A stretch of 64,000 nt of DNA from Altererythrobacter sp. ZODW24 (GTDB lineage: Bacteria > Pseudomonadota > Alphaproteobacteria > Sphingomonadales > Sphingomonadaceae), in contig NZ_CP031155.1 in NCBI RefSeq assembly GCF_003344885.1, positions 2,497,327 through 2,561,326 on the forward strand. Direction: 5' to 3'. The position numbers were made by a program, and so were the translations under genes. A model generated the notes under the pieces. The model made no database searches, was not told the origin of the DNA, and worked only from the letters and a program-made list of their open reading frames with translations. Shown here in pieces: positions 8,399 through 34,985 of the stretch (within the stretch, counting starts at the first letter, position 1; every line of letters begins with the position of its first letter).

Positions 8399-9814
8399 TT
8401 AGCTATCGCGGAAACCGACACCCACGGTTGCGCGCGGCTGCTCCAACTCGGTGCTTGCCACAGGATAGGCGCAGTAATCCGCCGCATAGAATGCGCTGGG
8501 GCGATGATTGCCTGACAGGCCGGTGCCGCCAAATGGCGCAGCCGATGACGCGCCATTGGTTGGCCGGTTCCAGTTCACGATACCGGCGCGGATATTGGCC
8601 CAGAAACGGTTATATTCCTGCGGCGTGCCGCCAACTAGGGAAGCAGCGAGACCAAAGCGTGTGTTGTTTGCCTCAGCAATGGCTTCATCGAAATCGTCCA
8701 CGCGGATGACTTGCAGCAGCGGCCCGAACAATTCGACATCGGGCCGGTCAGTCATTTTGGTCGTGTCGATGATCGACGGTGATAGGAATGGTAGATCGTC
8801 TTGCGGCTTAACCAGATGCTTGATCGCCTTGCCGCCATTGGACAGCAGATAGAGGAAGCTTTCGGTCAACTGGTCAGCGGCATCATTGTCGATAACCGGT
8901 CCCATGAAGGGTTGCGGATCGTCCATTGGCCCGCCCACGATGATCCGGTCAGCGAGTTTCTTCACCTCGACCATCAGATCATCATACATGCTGGATTTTA
9001 CGATCAAGCGGCGCGCTGCGCTGCATCGCTGTCCCGCAGTGGTGAACGCGGACTGGATCACCAGAGATGCTGCATCCAAGAACAGCGGCGTGTCCCACAC
9101 GATCAGCGGATTATTTCCGCCCATTTCGAGCGCAACGATCTTCCCCGGTTGGGTCGCCAGTTTCTTGTTGATCGCAATGCCCGCCTGAGCTGAACCTGTG
9201 AACAGCACCCCGTCGACGCCGCGATGCGCGACCAGTGCCTTACCTTCATCAGGGCCGCCGACTACCAGCTGGGCAACGGCTGATGGCAGGCCCGCCTTGT
9301 GAAGGCATTTGAGCAAGAATTCGCCCACAGCTGGCGTCTTCTCGCTTGGCTTGAAGATAACCGCATTGCCCGCGATCAGTGCTGGAATGATGTGGCCATT
9401 GGGCAAATGTGCAGGGAAGTTATACGGGCCAAGAACCGCCATAACACCATGCGGCTTGTGGCGAAGGGCAGCGGTGCCTTGCAGAGCGCTGTCGAGGCGC
9501 TTTTGACCGGTACGATCAGAATAGGCGCGGATGGAGATTTCGACCTTGTTGACCACGGCTTCGACTTCGGTGCGGGCTTCCCACATCGGCTTGCCGGTTT
9601 CGCGCGCGATCAGTTCGGCGAAGGTTTCATTTTCTTTGCGGACTTCATTGGCGAAACGGCGGACTGTCTCCATCCGCGTCGTCAGTGATTGCGCGGCCCA
9701 GGCAGGCCATGCGCGACGGGCACGGTCGACAATTGCATCGACATCGCTTTTCTCGGCGCGCCACAGTTCTTCGCCGGTTGCTGGCTCAACCGAGATGATC
9801 AAATTGTCGCTCAT
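8399..9814 (-). CDS. astD: N-succinylglutamate 5-semialdehyde dehydrogenase
   Basis: This 471-residue NAD(P)-dependent aldehyde dehydrogenase has the catalytic Cys in TTAGQRCSAARR and the catalytic Glu in VALEMGGNNPL. It also has the cofactor-binding FTGS element and the family's PYNFPAHLPNGHIIPAL. The PNGHIIPAL and GGNNPL variants are those I associate with AstD, the fourth step of the ammonia-forming arginine succinyltransferase pathway. The other ast genes are absent from this window, so they must lie elsewhere or the enzyme has another aldehyde substrate. The start after a short leader fits the family N-terminus. Confidence 0.85.
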   Translation of the reverse strand: MSDNLIISVEPATGEELWRAEKSDVDAIVDRARRAWPAWAAQSLTTRMETVRRFANEVRKENETFAELIARETGKPMWEARTEVEAVVNKVEISIRAYSDRTGQKRLDSALQGTAALRHKPHGVMAVLGPYNFPAHLPNGHIIPALIAGNAVIFKPSEKTPAVGEFLLKCLHKAGLPSAVAQLVVGGPDEGKALVAHRGVDGVLFTGSAQAGIAINKKLATQPGKIVALEMGGNNPLIVWDTPLFLDAASLVIQSAFTTAGQRCSAARRLIVKSSMYDDLMVEVKKLADRIIVGGPMDDPQPFMGPVIDNDAADQLTESFLYLLSNGGKAIKHLVKPQDDLPFLSPSIIDTTKMTDRPDVELFGPLLQVIRVDDFDEAIAEANNTRFGLAASLVGGTPQEYNRFWANIRAGIVNWNRPTNGASSAAPFGGTGLSGNHRPSAFYAADYCAYPVASTELEQPRATVGVGFRDS

Positions 9815-21972: not shown

Positions 21973-23508
21973 TTACAGGCAGGCTTCCAGATACGCTTGG
22001 TCGAAGCCGAACTGGCGCGCTTTTTCGAGCGTATAGGGACGCAGGCCAGATGGGCGATATTCGCCGATGATCTTGCCGTCGTCATCCTCGTCCAGATATT
22101 CGAACTTGAACAGTTCCTGGGTAATGATCACTTCACCTTCCATCCCGATAACTTCGGTAATGTTGGTGGTGCGGCGCGAACCGTCACGAAGACGTTTCAC
22201 CTGCACAATGATGTCGACCGATTCCGCAATCTGGCGTGAAATAGCTTCCTTCGGGATCTTAATGTCACCCATTAGAATCATGTTTTCCATACGGCCAAGG
22301 CACTCGCGCGGGCTGTTGGCGTGAAGCGTACACATCGAACCATCGTGGCCCGTGTTCATAGCGGCGAGAAGATCGAAACATTCCGCGCCACGAATCTCAC
22401 CAAGGATAATACGGTCAGGACGCATACGCAGGGCGTTCTTCACGAGATCGCCAATGGTAATCGCGCCTTGGCCTTCGAGGTTAGGCGGACGTGTTTCGAG
22501 CGGCAGCCAGTGCGGTTGTTGCAAACGAAGCTCGGCGGCATCCTCAATGGTCAGCACGCGCTCACCCGGGTCGATCATTTTCGACAGCGCGTTGAGCATG
22601 GTGGTTTTACCCGAACCCGTACCGCCTGAAATAACGATGTTCATCTGGCACGCACCGGCAATTTTTAGGGCGGTGGCCATCTTGTCGCTCATGGAACCGA
22701 AGTCCTTGAGCATGTCGATCGTGATCGGTTTCTCGGAGAACTTACGAATGGAAATCGCCGTGCCTTTGAGGCTCAGCGGCGGAACGATCACGTTGACACG
22801 CGAACCGTCCTTCAAGCGGGCATCGGCCAGCGGCGTGGTCTGGTCGACGCGGCGACCGACCTGGTTCACGATGCGCTGGGCGATCTGGAACAGATGCTGT
22901 TCGTCGCGGAAACGGATCGGCGCAAGTTGCAGCTTACCGCTTTTCTCAATGTACGTCTGGTCCGGCCCGTTGACCATGATGTCCGAAACGTCAGGATCGC
23001 CGAGCAGTTCTTCGAGCGGGCCAAAGCCCAGCAGTTCGTCGATAAGAACTTTTTCAAGCGCGAATTGCTCGCGGCGGTTCAGTGTAACTTTTAGCTCAGC
23101 TAACACTTCCATGATGATCGGACGGAATTCTTCCGACAGCTCATCCTTGGTCAGCGTTGCGGCAGCTTCGGGGTCGACACGTTCGAGCAGACGCGGAAGC
23201 ACTTGCTCCTTAATCTTATGGACGCTGGCTTCGAAGCCTTCGGCCTTATGCTCACCGGACACGACATTGTTTGCACGGTCGGTAAGGCGCGCCATCGCAT
23301 CCGCAGGTTCGGCGCTTGGCTTACCGGCACCGCCGTCGTTCGGGAGAGGAGGGAATTGCTCACCGCCGGCATCTGCGCCGGGCAGTGGTGCTGCTTCGGT
23401 ATCGGCGCTCTTGCCGTCGCCGCCTTTCATCGGGCGCGCTACGCCAAAGGCTGGGCGTGCCCCGCCTTGCATACCGCCTGCTCCGCTCTTGCGTCCGAAA
23501 GCACTCAT
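21973..23508 (-). CDS. cpaF: CpaF/TadA-type pilus assembly ATPase
   Basis: The ATG at MSAFGRKSGAGG gives 511 residues; the first 90 are a low-complexity Gly/Pro/Ala region. The rest is a VirB11/TadA secretion ATPase: N-terminal helical domain, FGPLEELLGDPDVSDIMVNG, Walker A GGTGSGKTT, the Asp box ERVLTIEDAAEL, MRPDRIILGEIRG, and the His box TGHDGSMCTLHANSP. It powers Flp/Tad pilus assembly at the inner membrane. The other cpa/tad genes are not in this window, so cpaF is separated from its usual cluster. It converges with soxR with 9 bases between stops. Confidence 0.93.
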   Translation of the reverse strand: MSAFGRKSGAGGMQGGARPAFGVARPMKGGDGKSADTEAAPLPGADAGGEQFPPLPNDGGAGKPSAEPADAMARLTDRANNVVSGEHKAEGFEASVHKIKEQVLPRLLERVDPEAAATLTKDELSEEFRPIIMEVLAELKVTLNRREQFALEKVLIDELLGFGPLEELLGDPDVSDIMVNGPDQTYIEKSGKLQLAPIRFRDEQHLFQIAQRIVNQVGRRVDQTTPLADARLKDGSRVNVIVPPLSLKGTAISIRKFSEKPITIDMLKDFGSMSDKMATALKIAGACQMNIVISGGTGSGKTTMLNALSKMIDPGERVLTIEDAAELRLQQPHWLPLETRPPNLEGQGAITIGDLVKNALRMRPDRIILGEIRGAECFDLLAAMNTGHDGSMCTLHANSPRECLGRMENMILMGDIKIPKEAISRQIAESVDIIVQVKRLRDGSRRTTNITEVIGMEGEVIITQELFKFEYLDEDDDGKIIGEYRPSGLRPYTLEKARQFGFDQAYLEACL

Positions 23509-23642
23509 TGTGTGGTCCCCGCCCATTCAAATTTAATTACGCTCCACCTGCTGGCTTCCCAGCGGATGGCTTATGCTTACTAATCAAGAATGGTAAATAA
23601 TCCGGAAAGGTTATTTTTTACTGAAAGGGAGGAGGCGAAAAT

Positions 23643-24521
23643 TCAGCCCCGAACCGCGCTGCGCAGCAAATGCGGCAGGCTTTGAAACAGCGTTTGCGTG
23701 GGGCGTTGCACAAGCGATGATGCAATTCCTGCCAAGATCATGCCCCGGTCACCGAAGCGACTGCCGATTTCAGCTCTTAAATATTGATGCATTGCGGTTA
23801 CGTAGCGTTTGTCTGCAACATCGCTCAATCCAGCAAGAGCCCGGTCTTGGACTATTGCGTGGCCATCCAGCACCTTGTCGCGCCCGCTGGTTATCCGGTC
23901 ATGGTCGCCAATATCCTGATATGTCAGCGGCTCGTCGATGAAGGCGGCGCTGCCTTGGCCAAGCAGTTTGAGCCACAGATCCCAGTCCTGACAGCTGGGC
24001 AAAGCAGGATCGAAGCCGCCGACATGCCGGAATGCGTCCACGCGGAAACATACGCTGGAACAGCCGCCAATGTGGTTGCGTCCAGCCAGAGTCACGGCGA
24101 GCGGGCGAGCGGCATGTGGGCCTTCACCATAATGATTGCAGACATCGCCCTCTCCGCTGCGAGTCAATGCTGCGCGGTTATAGCTGAGGACGGTATTTTC
24201 ACGTGCGAGCGAGGCGCGGTGGCGCTCAAGCCGGTTCGCAGTCCACCAATCATCGGAATCGAGTGTCGCTATGTAATCGCCCTTAGCTGCAGCAATCGCC
24301 CGATTGCGAGCGGTGGGAGCTCCCTTGCTTTGATCAAAACGGATCAACTGCGCCTTACTTGTCTGCCCGACCAAGCCAGCGATTTCGCGCGCCTCATCCT
24401 CATCCGATCCATCATCGACGATGATAATCTCAATGTCCTGATCGCTTTGTTGCATGACGCTCGCCAAAGCGCGGCGTAACATCGCCGAACGGTTCTTTGT
24501 AGGGATAATGACGGAGAACAT
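23643..24521 (-). CDS. Glycosyltransferase family 2 (polysaccharide locus)
   Basis: This 292-residue GT-A enzyme starts FSVIIPTKNRSAMLRRALASVM. It has the nucleotide-sugar-binding EIIIVDDGSDED, the metal-binding DXD-like TLDSDDWW, and the acceptor/catalytic region SCQDWDLWLKLLGQG. The donor and acceptor sugars are not predictable. It follows the acyltransferase-sulfotransferase fusion by 7 bases and is the last gene of the operon that begins with the flippase. The 134 bases between it and cpaF are AT-rich, with a weak hairpin around 23600 and no gene. Confidence 0.9.
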   Translation of the reverse strand: MFSVIIPTKNRSAMLRRALASVMQQSDQDIEIIIVDDGSDEDEAREIAGLVGQTSKAQLIRFDQSKGAPTARNRAIAAAKGDYIATLDSDDWWTANRLERHRASLARENTVLSYNRAALTRSGEGDVCNHYGEGPHAARPLAVTLAGRNHIGGCSSVCFRVDAFRHVGGFDPALPSCQDWDLWLKLLGQGSAAFIDEPLTYQDIGDHDRITSGRDKVLDGHAIVQDRALAGLSDVADKRYVTAMHQYLRAEIGSRFGDRGMILAGIASSLVQRPTQTLFQSLPHLLRSAVRG

Positions 24522-24528
24522 CGGGCTC

Positions 24529-25899
24529 TTAGCGCCAATCCGGATAGAGGCGATCCATTATCTCGCCGCACCATTTTTCGTGGATTTGGTGCTCTTCCGA
24601 GGTCCAAGCTTCGGTCTTGTGCCTCCCGTGGACGGCCTTGTTTTCCTGAGTAACCGGGATCGAATGCGGGGGGGCACCTGCAAAGCTGATAATGTCGTCC
24701 GCCTGGTCAGAGAGGTCCTCCAGTCGGACCAGTAATTTGCGGTTCTCAGGAAGTCCGTCAAACGCCGCCTCTATCGAGCGGTTCACATGTGCCCAATACC
24801 AAGCGCATTTCTCGAACTGCGACATTGCTGCAAAGCCCTCGACCGCCGGGGAAGTGAGGTTACCTTGGACGCGCCAATGCTCACGGAACCACGGGTTTTT
24901 GCTTTCCTGAAAGTTCTCGGCCTCCTGTGAATACCATCCGCGTCCGATTACTGAGGCGACGACTTTGGGTGACTGACGCACCAGCCAGATGAACTTGGAA
25001 TTGGGCAATGCGTCTTGCAGGATCGGGATCAGATTGTAGAATTTCTGGTCAGATTCGAGATGGATTTTCGCAGGATCATAAACGCTGCCATCCAAATAGA
25101 GATCGCGGATCAGCGCGGTCGCTTCTGCCTTGTCGATCTTCCCTTCATCAAGCTCCGTCGACCATTTGATCAACTGCCTGCGCGGTTCGTGTTGACCGTT
25201 GATTTGCGGATGCCGGTTGCACCAATTGCCCAGCGTTTGCGTACCGGAGCGGCCCGTGCTGGCCACAAAGACAATGCGCGGTTCTCGCTCGCGAGCTGTC
25301 GGCCACTGGGTTGCCACTTGAGCAGGAGAAAGAGGCTGACCATTTTTTCCGCCATAGGCGTCGGCGTCGTCCGCGGCGACCGTGATGGCAGCGTCGCGTT
25401 GACCGATTGTTCTCTGACCCGCAGATGCAACAATCTCGCCGGGCTGCACGTCTTTTGAAACGATTGCGCCCATCGCCACGATTGCACCGTCTCCGATGGT
25501 CACGCCGGGCAGGATGGAGGCGTTCATGCCTATCCAGACATTGCGGCCGATGATGACCTGACGCCAACTGCGCGTCTTTCCGTAAGGCAGCCGTGCTTCC
25601 GCGCGAAAATCATGGTCCGATCCGTAAATCGTGACGCGGCGCGAAATATGGGTGTTGTCGCGGATCTGTACGCCGCCCTCGGCATGGATGAAGCAATCCG
25701 CGCCGATGAAGACATTGTTGCCAACTGACAGGCCAAGCGGATCCATAACAGTGACGGTGGGATCGATATTACCACCGACGCCGCAGCGCTGCATTGATGC
25801 GCGCAAATGCTCCGCCTTATCGGCACTCAGCAGCGAATTGCCTCGACCGACCAATTTGGCCAGAATGCGCAGGGCCTTATCTGTCAGGCTGGAACTCAT
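24529..25899 (-). CDS. Acyltransferase-sulfotransferase fusion protein
   Basis: This is one uninterrupted 456-residue frame with two enzymes. Residues about 40-165 are a left-handed beta-helix acyltransferase of the WbbJ/MaaT kind: LSVGNNVFIGADCFIH, IRDNTHISRRVTIYGSDHDF with the catalytic His, and VWIGMNASILPGVTIGDGAIV. After an Ala/Asp-rich linker, residues about 205-456 form a bacterial sulfotransferase. Its PAPS-binding 5' loop is FVASTGRSGTQTL, and the 3'-phosphate site is LVRQSPKVVAS. The likely role is to O-acetylate and sulfate a surface glycan or its lipid-linked unit. It overlaps the flippase stop by 4 bases (ATGA). Confidence 0.87.
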   Translation of the reverse strand: MSSSLTDKALRILAKLVGRGNSLLSADKAEHLRASMQRCGVGGNIDPTVTVMDPLGLSVGNNVFIGADCFIHAEGGVQIRDNTHISRRVTIYGSDHDFRAEARLPYGKTRSWRQVIIGRNVWIGMNASILPGVTIGDGAIVAMGAIVSKDVQPGEIVASAGQRTIGQRDAAITVAADDADAYGGKNGQPLSPAQVATQWPTAREREPRIVFVASTGRSGTQTLGNWCNRHPQINGQHEPRRQLIKWSTELDEGKIDKAEATALIRDLYLDGSVYDPAKIHLESDQKFYNLIPILQDALPNSKFIWLVRQSPKVVASVIGRGWYSQEAENFQESKNPWFREHWRVQGNLTSPAVEGFAAMSQFEKCAWYWAHVNRSIEAAFDGLPENRKLLVRLEDLSDQADDIISFAGAPPHSIPVTQENKAVHGRHKTEAWTSEEHQIHEKWCGEIMDRLYPDWR

Positions 25900-27473
25900 T
25901 CACTCTGTCCTTCGAACGTATCTTTGCCAAGCAACTGGCGTATCCATTGGCCCGATTGCTGGAAGGCGTTTCTGGTCGCCCCATCGAGCATAACCACGAT
26001 GGCTACACCAACAGCATAAATTACCAATGTCATCATAATCGAAAGCGCGGAAGCTGCGAGACCTGATCCGCCGAGCATTGCGCGTAAATCCAACCCTCTG
26101 CTTATCAACACCGCGGCTAAAGCGGCTGCCGCAATCGGCCCGGTGACGCGCAAAAGACCGGTAGCGCTTACCGGGCTGCGATGCGCTGCGTAGAATACCG
26201 AAGGTACCGCAACGGCAAGATGCACCAGGCTAAAACCAAGAGCGACGCCTAAAGCGCCATATGGCAATCCCAGCAGCATGCCTGCGATAAACAGCGGCAG
26301 AGTGAGCAATTGCCAGCGCAGCATTCGGCCCGTCTGACCCAGCGAAAGGAATATCCACGGGTTTGCACTCATGAGCGATCGGGCGAACATCGAAATACCG
26401 AAAATGCTCACAATTTCTGCAGCTTGGCCCCAGTCAGGGCCGAGCAGAATACGCACGATGTCCCGCGCGTTCACCGTCAACATCGCAGCCAGCAGGAAAG
26501 TAGCGAGCGCGATGATCCTGACTGAGTTAGTCAGCATATCGCGCCATTGTTCAGGATCACTTTGCAAGCGGCTGAGCGCTGGCACAATGGCGCTCGAAGC
26601 CGGTCCGGAAACCATGGTCTGCGGTATCATCAGGACCGAATAAGCGCGGCTGTAGAAACCCAGTTCAACAATGCCCCAGCGCGAGCCGATCAGGATGTCG
26701 TCAAACCGGCGATTAAAGAAATAGACCAATTCGGTTCCGGTCAACGGCAGGCCAAACTTCAACGCGTCGCGTGCACCTTGCCAATTGCCGACCCGTGACG
26801 GCCGCCAAGTGGAAACCGCCCACAGCAATCCGGTCTGAACAAGGACGATCAGCCACGCATTTGCGACAAGCGCCCAATATCCGATATCGGTTGTGAGCAC
26901 GAGAGCGATGGAAATCGCGCTGGCTACAGCGACTGCGACTAGATTGATCCAGCGGTCTTGAATAATTTGCATATTCCGGCGCAAAAGGGCTGAATGTTGC
27001 GCTCCGACCGCTGCGATCAGAATTGTGCCTGAAGACACCATGATCAGCGAGGTCACCCGGCCATCGCCGAAAAACGCACCTGCCAGCGGGGCACATACAA
27101 TACCGATCAGCATCAATATCGCTGCCACACCGATGTTGAAAACATACACGCCGCTCAACGTATCTTGATCGAGCCGTTCCTTCTGAATAATCGCGGCGGA
27201 GCAGCCCATGTCTCTGAAAAGTGCGATGAATGCGATGATTGAGGTTGATATGGCGACTAAGCCGAAGTCGGCAGGTGCCAAAACCCGCGAGAATACCGCT
27301 ATATTGGCAAGCTGGATGAGCACCACGATGATCTGCGTGCCGATTGCGAACGCGCCGCCGCGCCCGGCCTTGATGCCGAGCTGTGATTTGCTTTGTTCAT
27401 GGCCGCCACTTGCCCCTTGATAATCAGGAGCAGGCGAAGCACTACTGGGAGCATGGGGATTTTGGTCAGTCAT
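25896..27473 (-). CDS. Wzx-type oligosaccharide flippase
   Basis: The ATG after GGGGAGATATCGCA gives 525 residues; the frame extends 31 codons further upstream but without a good ribosome site. After a polar N-terminus of about 45 residues, 12-14 hydrophobic helices follow the polysaccharide-export MOP pattern (GTQIIVVLIQLANIAVFSRVLAPADFG; SRWGIVELGFYSRAYSVLMIPQ). It should flip lipid-linked repeat units across the inner membrane. It is the first gene of a three-gene minus-strand operon and is divergent from a GT2-led operon, with a 127-base promoter region between them. Confidence 0.9.
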   Translation of the reverse strand: MTDQNPHAPSSASPAPDYQGASGGHEQSKSQLGIKAGRGGAFAIGTQIIVVLIQLANIAVFSRVLAPADFGLVAISTSIIAFIALFRDMGCSAAIIQKERLDQDTLSGVYVFNIGVAAILMLIGIVCAPLAGAFFGDGRVTSLIMVSSGTILIAAVGAQHSALLRRNMQIIQDRWINLVAVAVASAISIALVLTTDIGYWALVANAWLIVLVQTGLLWAVSTWRPSRVGNWQGARDALKFGLPLTGTELVYFFNRRFDDILIGSRWGIVELGFYSRAYSVLMIPQTMVSGPASSAIVPALSRLQSDPEQWRDMLTNSVRIIALATFLLAAMLTVNARDIVRILLGPDWGQAAEIVSIFGISMFARSLMSANPWIFLSLGQTGRMLRWQLLTLPLFIAGMLLGLPYGALGVALGFSLVHLAVAVPSVFYAAHRSPVSATGLLRVTGPIAAAALAAVLISRGLDLRAMLGGSGLAASALSIMMTLVIYAVGVAIVVMLDGATRNAFQQSGQWIRQLLGKDTFEGQSE

Positions 27474-27600
27474 TGCGATATCTCCCCTCCCTTGCTTGGT
27501 GCCGGGCCCGCGATTGTCGGGCTTCCCTGCGCCATAGCGGCATTTGGTAAACAGACCGGTAACCATAGCAAGTCAGTGATTTTTGCGATGCGAGAGCCTC

Positions 27601-28479
27601 GTGGCTGAGCGGCCCGCCATCTCTGTCATTATCCCCGTATGGAATGGTGAGCGATACTTGCGCTCCACAATGGATGCGCTTGCGGCCCAGACAGCGCCGG
27701 GGGATCGCTATGAGATCATCGTGGTCGACAATGGATCTACCGATAGCTCGGTGACGATTTTGCGTGATTATCCCGAGATTACTGTGCTCAGCGAACCGAG
27801 GCCCGGTTCCTATCGCGCAAGAAACCATGCGGTAGGTAGCGCTTCTGGGGAATATTTGCTGTTCACAGACGCCGACTGCCGGCCGCATCCGGACTGGATC
27901 GAAAAGGCTCTGGCTATAGCGGATGCAGATAAGGTTGCGGGCGTTACCGGCGGAAGAATCACGCTCTATCGTGAGGGGCCGGGCAATCACTCTGCGGCTT
28001 TGTTTGAGGAGCTAACAAGCTTCAATCAGGCTCAGTATATCGCCGCAAAGCGCTGCGTCACCGCCAATTGGCTGTGCCGGAAGTCGGTTTTGCTCGAGGT
28101 CGGCGGCTTTGATGCTGAAATGCTCTCGGGCGGCGATTTCGACTGCGCTCGTAAGGTCATCGAGGCGGGATATGAAATCCGCTACGCACCCGAGATGACG
28201 GTCGAGCATCCCGTCCGAGCAGAAGTTGCTGGCCTGATTGCCAAGCGCCGCCGCGTGGTCGGCGGCATGTGGACTAAGGACGGGCTGAAGGACCAATCTG
28301 CGCCGCATGCGCTGTTTGGCTTGGTCAAAGCAGGCGCGCGGCAAATGGGCACGATTATGCGCAGTGATATTCCCGGCGGATCGAAGCCCGGGGTGCTAGC
28401 CATTTCTGCGCTCATCACCGCCGCAAGCCTGTTTGAAACGATAAGATTGAAGAGCGGCGCTTCGCCGTATCGTTCGTAA
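27601..28479 (+). CDS. Glycosyltransferase family 2 (polysaccharide locus)
   Basis: The GTG at VAERPAISVIIPVWNG is the most likely start, with GCGAGAG upstream; a TTG six codons earlier is possible. The 292-residue GT-A protein has EIIVVDNGSTDSS, the metal motif FTDADCRPHPDW, and WLCRKSVLLEVGGFDAEMLSGGDFD, typical of family 2 transferases. The stop overlaps the ATG of the GT4 gene that follows (TAATG). It heads a four-gene plus-strand operon of glycosyltransferases. Confidence 0.9.
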   Translation: MAERPAISVIIPVWNGERYLRSTMDALAAQTAPGDRYEIIVVDNGSTDSSVTILRDYPEITVLSEPRPGSYRARNHAVGSASGEYLLFTDADCRPHPDWIEKALAIADADKVAGVTGGRITLYREGPGNHSAALFEELTSFNQAQYIAAKRCVTANWLCRKSVLLEVGGFDAEMLSGGDFDCARKVIEAGYEIRYAPEMTVEHPVRAEVAGLIAKRRRVVGGMWTKDGLKDQSAPHALFGLVKAGARQMGTIMRSDIPGGSKPGVLAISALITAASLFETIRLKSGASPYRS

Positions 28480-29702
28480 TGGTTAGCATCCTCCACATCA
28501 GCCATTCGGATGAAGCAGGCGGTGCAGCAATCGCGGCGCGGCGCATGGTTGAGGCGCAGCGCGCGCAGGGGCTTGATGCGCGAATGCTGGTGATCGAGCG
28601 CAAGGGACAGCGGGATTTTGTCGAACAGGCGGGCAATCCCGGCCGTGTTCGTCTCGCACGCATGGCCGCAAAGCGGATCGCTCGTTTGGGCGCGCGCAAA
28701 GACAAGGACGGCATGCGTTCGCTTGGATTTATCGCGTCAGGTTTGGGTGCAGCGATCCGTGACCGGTCCCCCGATGTCGTGCATTGGCACTGGGTTGGAG
28801 TGGAGAGTGTCTCTCTGGCCGAAATGGCTTCGACCGGCATTCCGTGTGCATGGACGTGTCACGATCAATGGGCGTTTTGTGGCGCTGAGCACTACGCACC
28901 GGATCGCCGCTTTGAGACTGGTTATGCCGGCGCGGGTTCGTTTGACATTGATGCGATGACTTTCAGACGTAAACACGCGGCTTGGACCGGATGGCGGCCA
29001 ACGCTGATCGCTCCGAGCGAATGGATGGCCAAGGAGGCTCACAGCAGCGCGTTATTTGGCGATGCGCCCATTGTGACCATTCCCAACACTGTGAGTACGG
29101 CGATTTTTGTGCCGAGCGATAAGCAGGAGGCGCGCGTCGGGTTGGGGCTTCCAGCAGATCGCAAGATTGTGCTTTTTGGAGCAGACAGTGGAACGGTCGA
29201 TCCTCGCAAGGGCTTTGACTTGCTGATGGCCGCGCTGAAAACTATGCCCGAACCAAGCCGCGAGCAGATCGCGCTTGCAACATTTGGCGGCAGTGTCCGC
29301 GCTTCGGGCAAGATGGCCGGCTTTGATCACATCGAGCTTGGTCGTTTTAATTCAGACGAAGATGTCGCGCAGTTATATTCTGCAGCTGATGTGTTTGTGG
29401 CGCCATCACGGCAAGACAATCTGCCCAACACTATGGTGGAGGCGCAGACATGCGGATTGCGGAGTGTGGCTTTCGATATCGGCGGCATGGGTGACATCAT
29501 CGCTTCGCCGGAATTGGGCGAGTTAGTGCAGCCATTTGACGTGGGCGCGTTCGGAGCCGCTATCTTGTCGGCAGCGACGACTGAGTATGATCGCGGTGCT
29601 GTCCATCGACGTGCCGCAGAGCGCTTCGGCGCTGAAACGGTCGTCCGTCAATGCACAGCTGTTTATGACCGGCTGATCGCTGAGCGGAGCGCAGCATCGT
29701 GA
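28479..29702 (+). CDS. WcaC-like glycosyltransferase family 4
   Basis: This 407-residue GT-B protein opens with ILHISHSDEAGGAAIAARR. It contains DVVHWHWVG, TCHDQWAFCGAEHY, PNTVSTAIF, a phosphate-binding FGADSGTVDPRKGFDLL, and SRQDNLPNTMVEAQTCG. In the last motif the first Glu of EX7E is replaced by Asp. These features match the WcaC subgroup of colanic-acid glycosyltransferases. The sugar is unknown. It overlaps both neighbours (TAATG before, GTGA after), so all are translated from one message. Confidence 0.9.
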   Translation: MVSILHISHSDEAGGAAIAARRMVEAQRAQGLDARMLVIERKGQRDFVEQAGNPGRVRLARMAAKRIARLGARKDKDGMRSLGFIASGLGAAIRDRSPDVVHWHWVGVESVSLAEMASTGIPCAWTCHDQWAFCGAEHYAPDRRFETGYAGAGSFDIDAMTFRRKHAAWTGWRPTLIAPSEWMAKEAHSSALFGDAPIVTIPNTVSTAIFVPSDKQEARVGLGLPADRKIVLFGADSGTVDPRKGFDLLMAALKTMPEPSREQIALATFGGSVRASGKMAGFDHIELGRFNSDEDVAQLYSAADVFVAPSRQDNLPNTMVEAQTCGLRSVAFDIGGMGDIIASPELGELVQPFDVGAFGAAILSAATTEYDRGAVHRRAAERFGAETVVRQCTAVYDRLIAERSAAS

Positions 29703-30451
29703 TTGAGCAGCAGAAACCGCGCATCTCAGTCGTCACGGCAGCATACAACGCTCTTGATGGTCTTCGCACAACCATCGCAAGTGTCGCGGAGCAAGACTTT
29801 GATTCAGTCGAACATATCGTGGTCGATGGAGCATCGAATGATGGCACGGCTACGTATCTTGAAGGGCTAGGCGACAACGTGCGCTGGATCAGCGAGCCTG
29901 ACAAGGGCATTGGCGATGCCATGAATAAGGGTGTCGCTATGGCGCGGGGTGACTATGTCCTTGTGCTGCACGCCGAGGACTATTTCGCGAGCGAGCAAAG
30001 CCTGACTGAGGTCGCCAAGTATCTCGATGGCACTGACATTGTTTCATTCGACGTGATGATCACCGATGAGGGAGCAGAGCGAATTTTCCCGACACGAGGC
30101 TTCGGTCTCAAGGCGGAATTCTTCGCCACCGTCCCGCATCAGGGCGCCTTCTGTCGCCGCGATTTGTTCGACTGGATTGGCGATTTCGATCAACAATATC
30201 GTATCGCGATGGATTATGAGTGGATGCTGCGTGCCAAGCGTGCGGGGGCGAGCATCAAGCAGATCAACCGTCATGTCACCGTGATGCCCGCAACGGGCAT
30301 TAGCGCCCAGCTCGATTGGCCCAGCTTGGAAAAACGGCTTGCGGAAAACCGGTTGGTTCAAGACCGCATGGGTAACTCTCTGCTTGCACCGATTCGCGAC
30401 GCATTTTGGGTGGCATATCCGGTTTACAAACGTTGGCGGGTGGGCGGATGA
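29699..30451 (+). CDS. WcaE-like glycosyltransferase family 2
   Basis: Starting at GTG within GTGA, this 250-residue GT-A enzyme has ISVVTAAYNALDGLRTTI, IVVDGASNDGT, ISEPDKGIGDAMNKG and the metal-binding VLHAEDYF. It also has the acceptor-site VPHQGAFCRRDLF and AMDYEWMLRAKRAG. The SEPDKGI-DAMNKG string is typical of the WcaE/colanic-acid type family 2 enzymes. Together with the preceding WcaC-like protein it suggests a capsule-like heteropolysaccharide. The stop overlaps the next gene by 4 bases. Confidence 0.9.
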   Translation: MIEQQKPRISVVTAAYNALDGLRTTIASVAEQDFDSVEHIVVDGASNDGTATYLEGLGDNVRWISEPDKGIGDAMNKGVAMARGDYVLVLHAEDYFASEQSLTEVAKYLDGTDIVSFDVMITDEGAERIFPTRGFGLKAEFFATVPHQGAFCRRDLFDWIGDFDQQYRIAMDYEWMLRAKRAGASIKQINRHVTVMPATGISAQLDWPSLEKRLAENRLVQDRMGNSLLAPIRDAFWVAYPVYKRWRVGG

Positions 30452-31218
30452 TTACCTTTGTCATTCCGTATTTTAACGAGCAGGATTACCTCGGTGAGAC
30501 GCTGGCGAGCCTTGCCGCGCAAGGTGATCGGCGCTTTGACCTGATTCTCGTCGACAACAAATCAACCGACCGAAGCGCTGAGATTGCGAGGGAGGCGGCG
30601 GCGGCAATGCCCGATATTCAAGTGCAGTTCTTGAGCGAGGATCGCGCGGGCAAATTGTTCGCACTTCGCAGCGGGATCGCAGCTGTGGGCACCGAATTGC
30701 TAGGCACGATGGATGCCGACACGATTTATCCGCCGGACTATGTGGGCAAAACGCTGGCACTGTTCGCAGCCAGCCCGAAATGTAGCGGCGTGATGGCGTT
30801 CAATGCACTGGGCGAAACGGTTTCTGTGTCAAAGTGGCTACAGGTGAGAGTACGGCCAGATCACTGCCACACTGGCGGCTATGCGCAGAACTTTCGCACG
30901 GCGGCGATCAAGGCTGTGGGGCAATATGATCCGGCCATCTGGCCCTATGTTCTGGAAGACCACGAAATTCTGCACCGAGTGCTGGAACACGGGCCTGTCA
31001 TCTACGCGAAGGATCATGTTTGCCGAACGTCGGATCGCCGCGACGATCGGACTGATGTGAGTTGGACGCTCTCGGAACGGATACTCTACAAATTGTTGCC
31101 GCAAAGCCGGATGAAGTGGTTCTTCCACCAGTTTCTAGCGCGGCGATTTGAGGCGCGTGGGCTTTCAAACATCCGCTTGCGTGAGCAGCAATGGCAGTCT
31201 GATCAGTCGCCTGAATAA
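30448..31218 (+). CDS. Glycosyltransferase family 2 (polysaccharide locus)
   Basis: The ATG in ATGA gives a clean start, MITFVIPYFNEQDYLGETL. The 256-residue GT-A protein has DLILVDNKSTDRS, the metal motif TMDADTIYPPDYV, GGYAQNFRTAAIKAVGQYD, and LEDHEILHRVLEHG as catalytic region. It is the last gene of the plus-strand operon. Its 3' end overlaps the 3' end of a convergent GT4 gene by 16 bases, so the two transcripts are antisense over a short stretch. Confidence 0.9.
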   Translation: MITFVIPYFNEQDYLGETLASLAAQGDRRFDLILVDNKSTDRSAEIAREAAAAMPDIQVQFLSEDRAGKLFALRSGIAAVGTELLGTMDADTIYPPDYVGKTLALFAASPKCSGVMAFNALGETVSVSKWLQVRVRPDHCHTGGYAQNFRTAAIKAVGQYDPAIWPYVLEDHEILHRVLEHGPVIYAKDHVCRTSDRRDDRTDVSWTLSERILYKLLPQSRMKWFFHQFLARRFEARGLSNIRLREQQWQSDQSPE

Positions 31219-32258
31219 TGCGTGGCCGTCTCGCGCGCGACGCGGGACCAAGAGTAATGTTCGCGCGCAGACTTCATCGCTCTCGCGGTGAATTTCTGGC
31301 GATCAGCCAAGGGCCATTCGGCGACCTCGGTGATCTGTTTTATCCATGCGTCGGCATTGCCGCTCTCTATCAGAAAGCCGGTTTTTCCTTCGATCACCGC
31401 TTCACTCAGGCCTCCGCAATTAGCGGCGAGAGTAACTCCGCCAGCGGCGGACGCCTCGCTGGCAATCAGCCCGAAGCCTTCGAACTCGCCATTGGGAAGT
31501 TCAATGTTGGGGAGCACCACCGCAAGTGCAGAAGCGTAAGCGACTTTCAAGTCATCGCTACCGAGCCGCCCGATGAAGTTGACGCGTGGATGACTGAGAG
31601 CGGCGTTTTCATCAGGGTCCCAGCGTGTTCCGGCTACGTCGAGCGTGATGTCTTGTGATAGACGGTTCAGCACATTCTCGGTGAACCAGCGCAATCCTTT
31701 GCGCTTCACCAAACGCCCCGCGAAGAGAATGCTCTTGGTCGGCGCGTCCTTGGGGGCATCTGCCACTATGTCCGTTGCGAGCGCAACAATTGCGGTATTG
31801 CGCCACCCGTATTCATACAGCGCTGCTTCGGTTGCGGCGGAGTTCGCAATGGCTTTTACGCGGCGTAGCAATCGCGCGCCCAACCGCAGATATGCACCGT
31901 ACAGTATCCCTTTGATGCCGCCACGCCTTGGATAGGAAACGTCCGTGCCATGCGCGGAAATTACAAGTGCGGTCTTGCGCGGTGCGAGCAGACCAATAGG
32001 CCACAAGGCCATATCAGCGATATGCAGGATGTCCGGCGCTGTATCGCGGTCGAACCAGCGGCGCAGGACAGTCAAGGGGAAGGCTATTAGCGCGGAAGTG
32101 CTGGGCGGACTGCCATCATCGCGCCCAGGGAGTGCCACGACGTCCAACTCGTAATCGTTCGCAAGCTCTTCAGTTAGCCGGTGGCAATAGGTCTCCATCC
32201 CGCCCATCGCGGGTGCCCATTTGCGGGTAACGAACATGAGGGACGATTTGCCGGACAT
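31203..32258 (-). CDS. Glycosyltransferase family 4 (polysaccharide locus)
   Basis: This 351-residue GT-B protein starts SLMFVTRKWAPAMGGMETYCHRL, with the donor-loop GGMET. It has the C-terminal KSILFAGRLVKRKGLRWF, VNFIGRLGSDDL and a full EX7E motif (Glu-GFGLIAS-Glu), followed by ASAAGG. It is the third gene of a minus-strand operon after the DPM1-like and GT39-like genes, with a 4-base gap to the latter. Its job is presumably another sugar addition in the same glycan. Confidence 0.9.
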   Translation of the reverse strand: MSGKSSLMFVTRKWAPAMGGMETYCHRLTEELANDYELDVVALPGRDDGSPPSTSALIAFPLTVLRRWFDRDTAPDILHIADMALWPIGLLAPRKTALVISAHGTDVSYPRRGGIKGILYGAYLRLGARLLRRVKAIANSAATEAALYEYGWRNTAIVALATDIVADAPKDAPTKSILFAGRLVKRKGLRWFTENVLNRLSQDITLDVAGTRWDPDENAALSHPRVNFIGRLGSDDLKVAYASALAVVLPNIELPNGEFEGFGLIASEASAAGGVTLAANCGGLSEAVIEGKTGFLIESGNADAWIKQITEVAEWPLADRQKFTARAMKSAREHYSWSRVARETATHYSGD

Positions 32259-32262
32259 CCGG

Positions 32263-33960
32263 TTAGAAATCCGTCCAATATGGGCGCTCTGGTGGCGCCG
32301 CTTCCGGGGGCTTGAGATTGTCGCCCCAAGTTAGCCTCGCGGGTGCTTCGGCAGCGTTCGAAAGCGTTACGGAGCCTCGTTTCAGTTCGACAACCGCACC
32401 TTTGGGATATGCCTGGCCATTTACCGATAAGCCGGTTCCCATGACCGTGTATGGTCCAGGGACATGGACTTCCCAGGCGGAATTTGTGCCTGCTTCAACT
32501 TCGGTACCGGCGATCCAAAATGGGCCCCAGAACTGCCGATATGTGGTGAGCAAAACTTCCCTGTCGCGCGGGCGGAACAGCGGTGAATTCTCGTCCTCCT
32601 GCAGCAAATGCAGGAAGCTTGGATTGAACTGAGGGTCGTCGGCTAACAGTAGCGGCACAGGCTTACGGGCTAGAATTTGCTCATAGGATGGACCTTCACC
32701 GCGAAGATATCCCTCGATACCCCATAGAGTCATGAAGACATTTGCCTTTTTGAATTCAGGCAACATCGCGGGAAAATCGAAATATTGGACGGGTTCGGGG
32801 AAGATCGTTGCGGCGGCTTGCTGGATCTGTCGCTGCTTGTCGATGTGGCTGGGGCCAGACAGAGCTGTAATCACCAGCGCATTGGCGACTAGCGGCGCAG
32901 TAACCAGTAAAGTCCCATATTTCCGCGTGCCTGCATCTAGCGCCAGCGCTGCCGCTGCAACTACCGGAGGCAACATGAAGGCGTAATAATAAGGCAGCGT
33001 GTTGTGATAGAAAAACAGTGTGCTGAGTGGCAAAAATAGCCCTGCCAAAGCCCATTTCTCTGCGCCAGAATGCTGCGACCGATAAATAATGAGCGGGGTC
33101 ACAAACAGAGCAATATAGAGTGGCAATGCGGTTAGGCCGAACATCCCGAAGAAGCCTAGAAACTGCGGCTTCCCGAGGAAGAACATCTTCGATCCAGACG
33201 AGCTGACCATTGCCTGAGCCTGCTGGGCTTGCGCGGCCTGCGTTACCTGTTCCGGCATTGCGGCCATATGGGCGAGCAGTATCAGTCCGAAGAATGCTCC
33301 GGCAGCAGCGACGCTTGCCGCAATGCGCGCAAGCATTGCCAGCGACCGTTCGGCTTCGTTCCAGCGCAGCCATGCCACGCCTGCGAAGGCGGGCAAGATC
33401 AGAATGCTCTTCATCGTCACCATGCCAGCGAGACCCACTAGCACGCCGAAAATCAGGATGCGCCACCAATCGAGGCGAGAGCGTAGGAGAATGCACAAAG
33501 CGGCCATCAGCAGCGCAATGGCGAGCGGATCAGTGCGGAAGGAGAAGCCGTTTTCGACGACAAAGCCCGCCGAGAGATAGGCGAGGGAGGCCAGAAGCGC
33601 CGAATTGCGCGCAACAAAGCGGCGAGCGATGATGAATATCGCCGTGGCACTTACGCATTCGCAGGCGAGCATTACCAACCGCCCGGCGATGATCTTGTCG
33701 ACGCCGGTGCCGGGGAGGGCGGCTAACCAACCGAACAGGCGGACATGAATTGTCTGAAGTGGCGCCCGCAATTCACCGCGCATGAACTGCTCGATTTGCG
33801 CGTAATAGTAAAACTCGTCCCAATTGATCGCACGGGTGAATGCGAGCCACAAATGCATCGCAAGCACAGCGCAGATAGCCCCCCTGATCCACACGAAGTG
33901 GCGGGGCTCTTGCGCGTCGTCATGAACTTGGCGCTGGCCTGATGCGGCCATGCTGGTCAT
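32263..33960 (-). CDS. GT39/ArnT-like membrane glycosyltransferase
   Basis: This 565-residue protein has about ten transmembrane helices in the first 370 residues and a C-terminal periplasmic domain of about 190. The first periplasmic loop carries AINWDEFYYYAQIEQF, where the Asp-Glu pair is the catalytic signature of PMT/ArnT-type GT-C enzymes using polyprenyl-phosphate sugars. It is preceded by and overlaps (ATGA) a DPM1-like gene that would make exactly such a donor. The pair probably decorates a glycan or lipid on the periplasmic side. Confidence 0.85.
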   Translation of the reverse strand: MTSMAASGQRQVHDDAQEPRHFVWIRGAICAVLAMHLWLAFTRAINWDEFYYYAQIEQFMRGELRAPLQTIHVRLFGWLAALPGTGVDKIIAGRLVMLACECVSATAIFIIARRFVARNSALLASLAYLSAGFVVENGFSFRTDPLAIALLMAALCILLRSRLDWWRILIFGVLVGLAGMVTMKSILILPAFAGVAWLRWNEAERSLAMLARIAASVAAAGAFFGLILLAHMAAMPEQVTQAAQAQQAQAMVSSSGSKMFFLGKPQFLGFFGMFGLTALPLYIALFVTPLIIYRSQHSGAEKWALAGLFLPLSTLFFYHNTLPYYYAFMLPPVVAAAALALDAGTRKYGTLLVTAPLVANALVITALSGPSHIDKQRQIQQAAATIFPEPVQYFDFPAMLPEFKKANVFMTLWGIEGYLRGEGPSYEQILARKPVPLLLADDPQFNPSFLHLLQEDENSPLFRPRDREVLLTTYRQFWGPFWIAGTEVEAGTNSAWEVHVPGPYTVMGTGLSVNGQAYPKGAVVELKRGSVTLSNAAEAPARLTWGDNLKPPEAAPPERPYWTDF

Positions 33961-34985
33961 TTCTTGCCTGCGCTCACGCTCCGAACCGGCTTCACGGTGC
34001 GAGCTTTCGGCTTCACCTCAGTCTCGGCCTTGGACAATTCGTCCAACCGATCACTCAGCCGCCGCGTTTCAAGCAGGCTCGTTTCCATCAGTTTACGGTT
34101 GCTGGCGATCAGATCAGCCAGAACACCCATGATGGCCACAAGCACGCCGAGTACGAGCAGGGATCCGCCTATTACCAGAGACTGGATATGACCTTCGCCT
34201 GCACCATTCAGATAAAACCAGATGAAGCGCAGGATCGGGATCGCGCCGATTAAGGCCATGATCAGGCCAGTGCCGACGAAGGCACGCAGCGGGTTATAGG
34301 TCGTATAAGCACGCGCCATGGTGATGCCGGTGTGCATGATAAAGCGCGGCACACTGCGGAACAGCCGCGAGGGGCGCGGGGTTTCATGCGTGCGGATTGG
34401 CACGCTGGTGATGGCTAGGCGTTTGCGGCCCGCCTGGATCAGCATATCAGTGGTGTAGCTGAATTCGGTGGTGATATTGATCCGCTGGGCTACATCGCGG
34501 CTCATGGCGCGGAAGCCGCTGACAGCATCGGTTATGTCGGTGTTAGAGAGCTTGCGAACAACGGAACTGCCGATGCGCTGGAGGCGGCGCTTCAAGGGTG
34601 AGAAATGCGCGTTCTTTGCCACGCCGCGGTCGCCCACGACTATATCAGCCTCACCTTTGACGATTGGTTCAACCAGCAGCGCGATGTCCGCGCCTTCATA
34701 TTGGCCGTCTGCATCTGTGTTCACGATGATGTCTGCGCCAGCCTTTAGCGAAGCGGCAAGTCCGGTCTGGAATGCCGCTGCAAGGCCGCGATTACCCGCA
34801 TGATGCACAACATGCTGGACACCGGCCGCACGGGCGACCTGCGCGGTGGCATCGCTGCTGCCGTCGTCGATAACGAGCACTTCAATCTCGTCCACACCGT
34901 CAATCTGCCGGGGCAGTGCGACGATCGTCTGAAGCAGCGTTTCCGCCTCATTCAAACACGGTATCTGGATAATCAGTTTGGTCAT
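33957..34985 (-). CDS. DPM1/GtrB-like polyprenyl-phosphate glycosyltransferase
   Basis: This 342-residue protein has a GT2 domain (LIIQIPCLNEAETL; VLVIDDGSSDAT; IIVNTDADGQYEG; VSGFRAMSRDV), two C-terminal transmembrane helices (FVGTGLIMALIGAIPILRFIW and SLLVLGVLVAIMGVLA), and a basic coiled tail. This layout is that of enzymes that load a sugar onto undecaprenyl phosphate. It begins the operon feeding the GT39-like enzyme. The 150 bases upstream contain a CtrA-like sequence and no gene. Confidence 0.88.
   Translation of the reverse strand: MTKLIIQIPCLNEAETLLQTIVALPRQIDGVDEIEVLVIDDGSSDATAQVARAAGVQHVVHHAGNRGLAAAFQTGLAASLKAGADIIVNTDADGQYEGADIALLVEPIVKGEADIVVGDRGVAKNAHFSPLKRRLQRIGSSVVRKLSNTDITDAVSGFRAMSRDVAQRINITTEFSYTTDMLIQAGRKRLAITSVPIRTHETPRPSRLFRSVPRFIMHTGITMARAYTTYNPLRAFVGTGLIMALIGAIPILRFIWFYLNGAGEGHIQSLVIGGSLLVLGVLVAIMGVLADLIASNRKLMETSLLETRRLSDRLDELSKAETEVKPKARTVKPVRSVSAGKK

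Follow-up and report, generated by a model that had tools for sequence, protein, structure and literature searches.

The window analysed here is a 64,000-nucleotide stretch of the Altererythrobacter sp. ZODW24 chromosome (contig NZ_CP031155.1), in which a single minus-strand gene, read from 25899 to 24529, starts with ATG, contains no internal stop codon and encodes a 456-aa protein joining an acyltransferase to a sulfotransferase. The gene lies within a cluster of glycan-related genes, the relevant features being the following:

24529..25899, minus strand: fusion gene encoding acyltransferase, linker and sulfotransferase (frame reading and homologous fusions)
25405..25782, minus strand: acyltransferase domain of the predicted left-handed beta-helix (hexapeptide) kind, residues ~40-165, with His96 (SDHDF) and Trp122 (NVWIG) (Pfam, solved relatives, conservation in 4/4 fusions)
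25279..25404, minus strand: linker spanning residues 166-207 and bearing the (Y/F)GG..G..L motif common to the four fusions (alignment)
24532..25278, minus strand: Sulfotransfer_3-type sulfotransferase domain, residues 208-456, with the PAPS loop at 215-220, Glu238, Arg308 and Ser316 (Pfam PF13469, TPST profile match, predicted fold, conservation in 4/4 fusions)
25896..27566, minus strand: flippase of the MOP family (Wzx-like), immediately upstream and sharing 4 bases (ATGA) with the fusion gene (Pfam Polysacc_synt_3, 1.5e-63)
23643..24521, minus strand: family 2 glycosyltransferase, starting 7 bases past the fusion stop (Pfam Glycos_transf_2, 1.1e-30)
27583..34985, both strands: rest of the cluster, comprising five more glycosyltransferases together with another family 2 enzyme and a membrane glycosyltransferase of PMT_2-like type (Pfam)
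21973..23526, minus strand: T2SSE-family ATPase, which we take to be CpaF-like, a conserved flank of a variable cassette (Pfam T2SSE)

A sequence-only reading of this stretch had proposed that one polypeptide carries both domains. Its coordinates were correct, the minus strand having gone unstated, and a domain search bears the proposal out, as Hexapep_2, Hexapep and Sulfotransfer_3 all score above their curated Pfam cut-offs (27 bits for each of PF14602, PF00132 and PF13469). The same reading had raised the worry of a frameshift separating two genes, which is answered by the one-contig genome and by three further genomes with the same fusion. The host assembly is a single contig of 2.81 Mb with a completeness of 99.99%, carrying the fusion full-length in single copy, and an equivalent fusion exists in Croceicoccus sediminis (G119, from the same family as the sphingomonad host), in Acuticoccus yangtzensis and in a genome of the same phylum and another class (G1054), so that a sequencing or assembly artefact is ruled out. 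With four genomes in all carrying the fusion, its linker motif conserved among them, a sequencing error fusing two separate genes has a negligible chance of being the explanation; the fusion is a real gene architecture. A separate internal start for the sulfotransferase half also appears unlikely, since GTG at residue 195 is the sole ATG, GTG, TTG or CTG codon between residues 165 and 211 and no Shine-Dalgarno-like stretch was seen ahead of it.

The N-terminal half matches Hexapep_2 (PF14602; 3e-14, 52.9 bits) and Hexapep (PF00132; 5.8e-13, 48.4 bits), the best stretches of these models falling at residues 114-148. Its nearest solved structures are those of maltose O-acetyltransferase (1ocx/6ag8, E ~6e-16), with whose loop histidine His96, within SDHDF (residues 94-98), aligns. 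Acyltransferases of the left-handed beta-helix fold form trimers. The hexapeptide repeats are accompanied by the loop catalytic histidine and the conserved tryptophan, the roles of which in acetyl-CoA-using members of the fold are described in PMC3046976; both residues are invariant in 14/14 aligned rows, eleven of which are stand-alone acyltransferases. Among the 25 NCBIfam models seen of the 44 matched, none reached its curated cut-off (the best scored 70 bits against 314), and the acyl half likewise falls below the cut-offs of the named acetyltransferase equivalogs MAT, WcaF, WbbJ and LacA. The acyl substrate and acceptor can therefore not be named from these models, although the group added is probably acetyl (O-acetylation).

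The C-terminal half matches Sulfotransfer_3 (PF13469) over residues 210-319 (1.7e-7, 32.2 bits). The three homologous fusions score 28.1, 24.3 and 52.7 bits against the same model, the Acuticoccus half lying just under the cut-off (24.3 vs 27 bits). As a single sequence, this half matches human TPST1/2 non-significantly (E 0.3-0.6), whereas a profile built from the four fusions yields a significant match (E ~5e-6). In the alignment, Arg217 and Glu238 coincide with an arginine and a glutamate of TPST2, presumably Arg78 and Glu99, with a spacing of 21 residues in both proteins. According to PMC6637879, three residues are essential in sulfotransferases: one basic residue of the 5' PAPS loop, a serine in the 3' motif and a His/Glu base between them. 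All four fusions possess them as Arg217 (in the window's protein within TGRSGTQTL, residues 215-223), Ser316 and Glu238.

The predicted structure also displays a sulfotransferase fold. A model built from 14 sequences has a mean pLDDT of 72.8 and a pTM of 0.61, a model from 3 sequences being weaker (60.4). The sulfotransferase half is mostly predicted with confidence (block pLDDT largely between 75 and 96, falling to 58-64 at residues 321-350 and 421-430), and the acyl half of the monomer model has block pLDDT values of 46-73. The fold comparison effectively covered residues 198-456, the span of all the fold-search rows, and gave human TPST1/2 with Z of ~16-17 (for TPST1, 5wrj_C, Z 16.8, rmsd 3.5 over 216 residues) and the CurM sulfotransferase domain with Z 15.4. 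Foldseek agrees, matching the sulfotransferase half to 4gbm at 3.7e-10.

All three homologous fusions combine the same parts. Those of Croceicoccus sediminis (458 aa, 55% identity to the window's protein) and Acuticoccus yangtzensis (625 aa, 51% identity), both alphaproteobacteria, display the same domain order; that of G1054 is 477 aa long counted from its ATG and 36% identical. Both catalytic motifs had been claimed to be intact, with a loss of key residues named as the result that would undo the claim. Twelve positions were looked up, and nine are identical in 4/4 fusions: His96, Trp122, Arg217, Gly219, Glu238, Asp284, Lys286, Arg308 and Ser316. The other three show mild variation (218 Ser/Ala, 220 Thr/Ser, 240 Arg/Lys). 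The claim of intact motifs thus withstands the comparison, the residues that bear on it (His96, Trp122, Arg217, Glu238, Arg308 and Ser316) being kept throughout. Among the three alphaproteobacterial fusions, identity is 64-79% in the acyl half and 44-48% in the sulfotransferase half; between the window and G1054 the values are 47% and 34%. The acyl half is therefore not decaying, as it is the more conserved of the two.

Each domain tree unites the four fusions in a single group: that of the sulfotransferase (26 rows) with an ultrafast bootstrap of 95, an SH-aLRT of 90 and recovery in 94% of bootstrap trees, and that of the acyltransferase (66 rows; quick search, without bootstrap) with an SH-aLRT of 98. 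Long-branch warnings were issued in both trees among the non-fusion rows. This grouping is consistent with a single fusion event that may have spread patchily, a result that denser sampling could alter. The greater length of the Acuticoccus protein includes an in-frame insert of ~119 low-complexity residues placed directly after the catalytic loop of its acyltransferase. Most of this insert corresponds to a GC-rich tandem repeat with 15/45/60/90-base periods (L035, 6965-7276), and a second array, with a 24-base repeat, is found at 8961-9299 of the same Acuticoccus locus.

The architecture is rare in the samples taken, which are not exhaustive. Fused copies were counted in 2/397 genomes of the host family, 1/385 of the class and 2/398 of the phylum, in 1/14 genomes of Croceicoccus (the genus of G119), around G1054 in 1/295 genomes of its family and 1/303 of its class, and in 1/196 genomes of the order. 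These samples overlap, every count includes the window's genome, G119 or G1054, and the counts are based on open frames reported or read. No fifth fusion was found in the sampled family, class, phylum, genus and order genomes, and the two same-genus genomes in the family sample (G060 and G132) are both without one. A pattern-limited scan of 84,980 species, which can miss sequences as distant as that of G1054, returned 97 relatives, with 2 full-length ones among the best 80 of the 97. Counting the architecture across genomes, as had been suggested from the sequence, thus shows it to be rare in these samples, with four fusions found, and not unique to the window's genome.

Other relatives of the sulfotransferase half recovered by profile search either occupy open frames 268-330 aa long or are linked to other domains. 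Two of them are fused to a methyltransferase domain (L135, 1444-3018, in G798; L156, 1-2328, in G1520), and this branch of sulfotransferases seems prone to fusing with other modifying enzymes. In G1458, a relative with a TPR tail adjoins flagellin and, judged by eye, apparent flagellar genes (L160, 7951-10397), which suggests sulfation of a flagellar glycan. A further relative, in G1577, sits in an 807-aa frame (L157) that has no Pfam match at 0.001; the same holds for L035:343-1074, L149:9736-11160 and L150:1-735. A phage or plasmid origin of the fusion was considered and rejected: the sulfotransferase half has no phage match, none of the 940 plasmid records that match covers 80% of the fusion protein, and the five matched PHROGs families are all confined to the acyl half. 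Two loci on viral contigs encode a relative of the sulfotransferase half that is 24% identical, with an open frame of 209 aa in the one read.

Pfam confirms the earlier placement of the gene between a flippase and a glycosyltransferase. In 4/4 loci the fusion gene is immediately preceded by a homologous flippase gene of the same orientation; the two genes share 4 bases in the window and in Croceicoccus, and are 17 bases apart in G1054 and 283 bases apart in Acuticoccus. The window's flippase is 46-48% identical to the other two alphaproteobacterial ones and only 23% identical to that of G1054, so that in the latter the pairing could reflect a common kind of neighbour instead of inheritance. 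A family 2-like glycosyltransferase follows the fusion in both the window and G1054 (L139), the two enzymes being barely alike, and the Croceicoccus cluster additionally contains a Sulfotransfer_2 gene. APS kinase is encoded in 4/4 fusion genomes, which means that PAPS can be made; this is permissive only, as most bacteria have the enzyme (11/14 control genomes among them).

The cluster had also been taken to imply a sulfated, acylated surface polymer. The context of glycan export stands, and the polymer goes beyond the evidence, the cluster having no recognised polymerase or export gene. Among the ten proteins scanned between 23643 and 34985, Pfam, which can overlook divergent polymerases, recognised no polymerase, chain-length, outer-membrane export or initiating sugar-transferase family. 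The flippase is thus the only member of the set required of a Wzx/Wzy polymer locus in this interval, and such a locus was rejected as a local assignment. A set of Bac_transf, Wzy_C, Poly_export and Wzz/GNVR genes is present in the same genome near 1.76 Mb, ~0.76 Mb away. This polymerase-type cluster (L149, 8017-12056; ~1.763-1.767 Mb) encodes a separate hexapeptide acyltransferase and a Sulfotransfer_3 protein ~2.6 kb apart, an unfused version of the acyltransferase/sulfotransferase pair in the fusion's own genome. Five further Sulfotransfer_3 loci occur in this 2.8 Mb genome (L115-L120), one of them in a 665-aa open frame.

G060, a genome of the same genus that lacks the fusion, has matching flanks, with EamA, PMT and two glycosyltransferase genes on one side and the T2SSE ATPase and MerR genes on the other, the T2SSE gene being 92% identical and at the same place. 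As these flanks enclose different glycan genes, the locus resembles an exchangeable glycan cassette or a hotspot for such exchange, the fusion being among the decorating genes that it contains. The G060 cassette (L153, 264-17482) contains a flippase 37% identical to that of the window, followed by a methyltransferase-like gene in the place of the fusion. A functional link between the fusion and the flanking T2SSE ATPase is unsupported, the same flank being present in G060 without the fusion.

We consider it reasonably probable that the protein is a bifunctional cytoplasmic enzyme that acylates and sulfates a lipid-linked glycan before its export by the co-transcribed flippase. The N-terminal half would assemble into a left-handed beta-helix trimer and acylate a sugar hydroxyl, the group most likely being acetyl donated by acetyl-CoA, with His96 as the base and Trp122 supplied by the adjacent subunit. 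Attached through the conserved linker, the C-terminal half would use PAPS to sulfate a sugar within the lipid-linked oligosaccharide that also receives the acyl group; here, the Arg217 loop and Arg308/Ser316 would hold PAPS, with Glu238 as the likely base. The decorated unit would then be exported by the flippase. What the sequences establish is the architecture and its conservation, intact motifs in the two halves, an adjacent flippase gene and a potential source of PAPS; from these we infer the two activities, trimerisation, co-transcription, a common acceptor, acetyl as the donated group and the succession of steps. Weighing against this reading are the low confidence of the acyl half in the monomer model, the distant flippase of G1054, the dissimilarity of the two downstream family 2 glycosyltransferases and, in Acuticoccus, the insert next to the catalytic loop and the wider gap to the flippase.

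It is also conceivable, though we hold it to be unlikely, that both halves are active on different glycans, or that the acceptor is not a polymer and the lipid-linked oligosaccharide becomes a glycolipid or is attached to a protein, for example pilin or flagellin. Several features of the neighbourhood are in keeping with such an outcome: the ten scanned cluster proteins lack the families for polymerisation, chain length and outer-membrane export, the cluster contains a family 2 enzyme side by side with a PMT_2-like membrane glycosyltransferase, a T2SSE ATPase flanks it, and the TPR-tailed sulfotransferase relative of G1458 lies beside flagellin. However, the Wzy_C, Poly_export, Wzz/GNVR and Bac_transf genes elsewhere in the genome could serve the cluster, and the T2SSE flank, which persists in G060 without the fusion, may be a mere chromosomal anchor. 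That one half is catalytic and the other a scaffold, with the beta-helix for instance merely trimerising the sulfotransferase, strikes us as very improbable. The established trimerisation of such acyltransferases would suit this arrangement, as would the greater divergence of the sulfotransferase half, whose Pfam score is near the cut-off in 3/4 fusions; yet His96, Trp122, Arg217, Gly219, Glu238, Arg308 and Ser316 are identical in four divergent fusions, and His96 and Trp122 are shared with all eleven stand-alone acyltransferases in the alignment.

The bifunctional decorating enzyme admits a bolder and quite improbable extension, a bacterial counterpart of the NDST logic. A trimeric beta-helix hub might carry three sulfotransferase domains, the two donors acting in obligate order on the same lipid-linked sugar so that one decoration gates the other. 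The co-transcribed flippase might export the doubly decorated unit only, and the module of flippase plus decorator might move between bacteria inside swappable cassettes.

The view that the fusion is undescribed was upheld by a literature search: among the matches listed, no open-access paper on an acyltransferase-sulfotransferase fusion was recognisable from its title or the start of its abstract. The fusion is thus apparently an undescribed enzyme design, each half of which is a known kind of enzyme. A word search of the available main text of a review on polysaccharide sulfotransferases (PMC11625862) found no occurrence of "fusion", "acetyltransferase" or "acyltransferase", and the latter two words are likewise absent from the searchable part of a paper on the sulfated capsule of Cobetia marina (PMC11766843). 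The same review reports sulfated polysaccharides from just six bacterial genera; an older source attributes bacterial sulfated polysaccharides to cyanobacteria only (PMC8205485). Most capsule sulfotransferases have no exact function assigned to them (PMC11641403). That the fusion is conserved suggests a connection, in these bacteria, between acylating and sulfating a single glycan. The fusion offers a marker for finding glycans that are both acylated and sulfated and a single protein in which to test both activities, and could serve as a tool for producing doubly decorated sugars.

Compared with known systems, the acyl half resembles maltose/galactoside O-acetyltransferase, WcaF, WbbJ and NodL in its hexapeptide repeats, catalytic loop histidine and NVWIG tryptophan, and is 38% identical to NodL over residues 19-166. 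Unlike the fusion, the known left-handed beta-helix O-acetyltransferases are single-domain proteins of ~180-210 aa. The sulfotransferase half has the PAPS loop, the 3' phosphate motif and the predicted fold in common with Sulfotransfer_3 (PF13469) proteins, TPST1/2 and the CurM domain, and by alignment also has a glutamate at the base position of TPST; it differs from them in its low identity (17-20% over aligned residues), its joined acyltransferase and its probable sugar acceptor. In Nod factor synthesis, NodL (acetyl) and NodH (sulfate) decorate one lipo-oligosaccharide as separate proteins. This pair likewise consists of a related acyltransferase and a PF13469 sulfotransferase, as NodH is classified in PMC11625862, but it is encoded by two genes. 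The capsule of Vibrio sp. KMM 8419 bears both sulfate and an O-acyl group, and, according to PMC11641403, the corresponding cluster encodes the acyltransferase (ORF_397) and the sulfotransferases as separate genes, with export by an ABC transporter, whereas the fusion is one gene. NDST, like the fusion, unites acetyl chemistry and PAPS-dependent sulfation of a glycan in one polypeptide, and NDST1, which deacetylates and sulfates (PMC10864358), represents the nearest described idea to the fusion. The direction of the acetyl chemistry sets the two apart, as NDST removes an acetyl group and the partner domain of the fusion should add an acyl group. NDST works in the Golgi, where it strips acetyl and sulfates the freed amine, and the fold of its partner domain differs from that of the fusion's acyl half.
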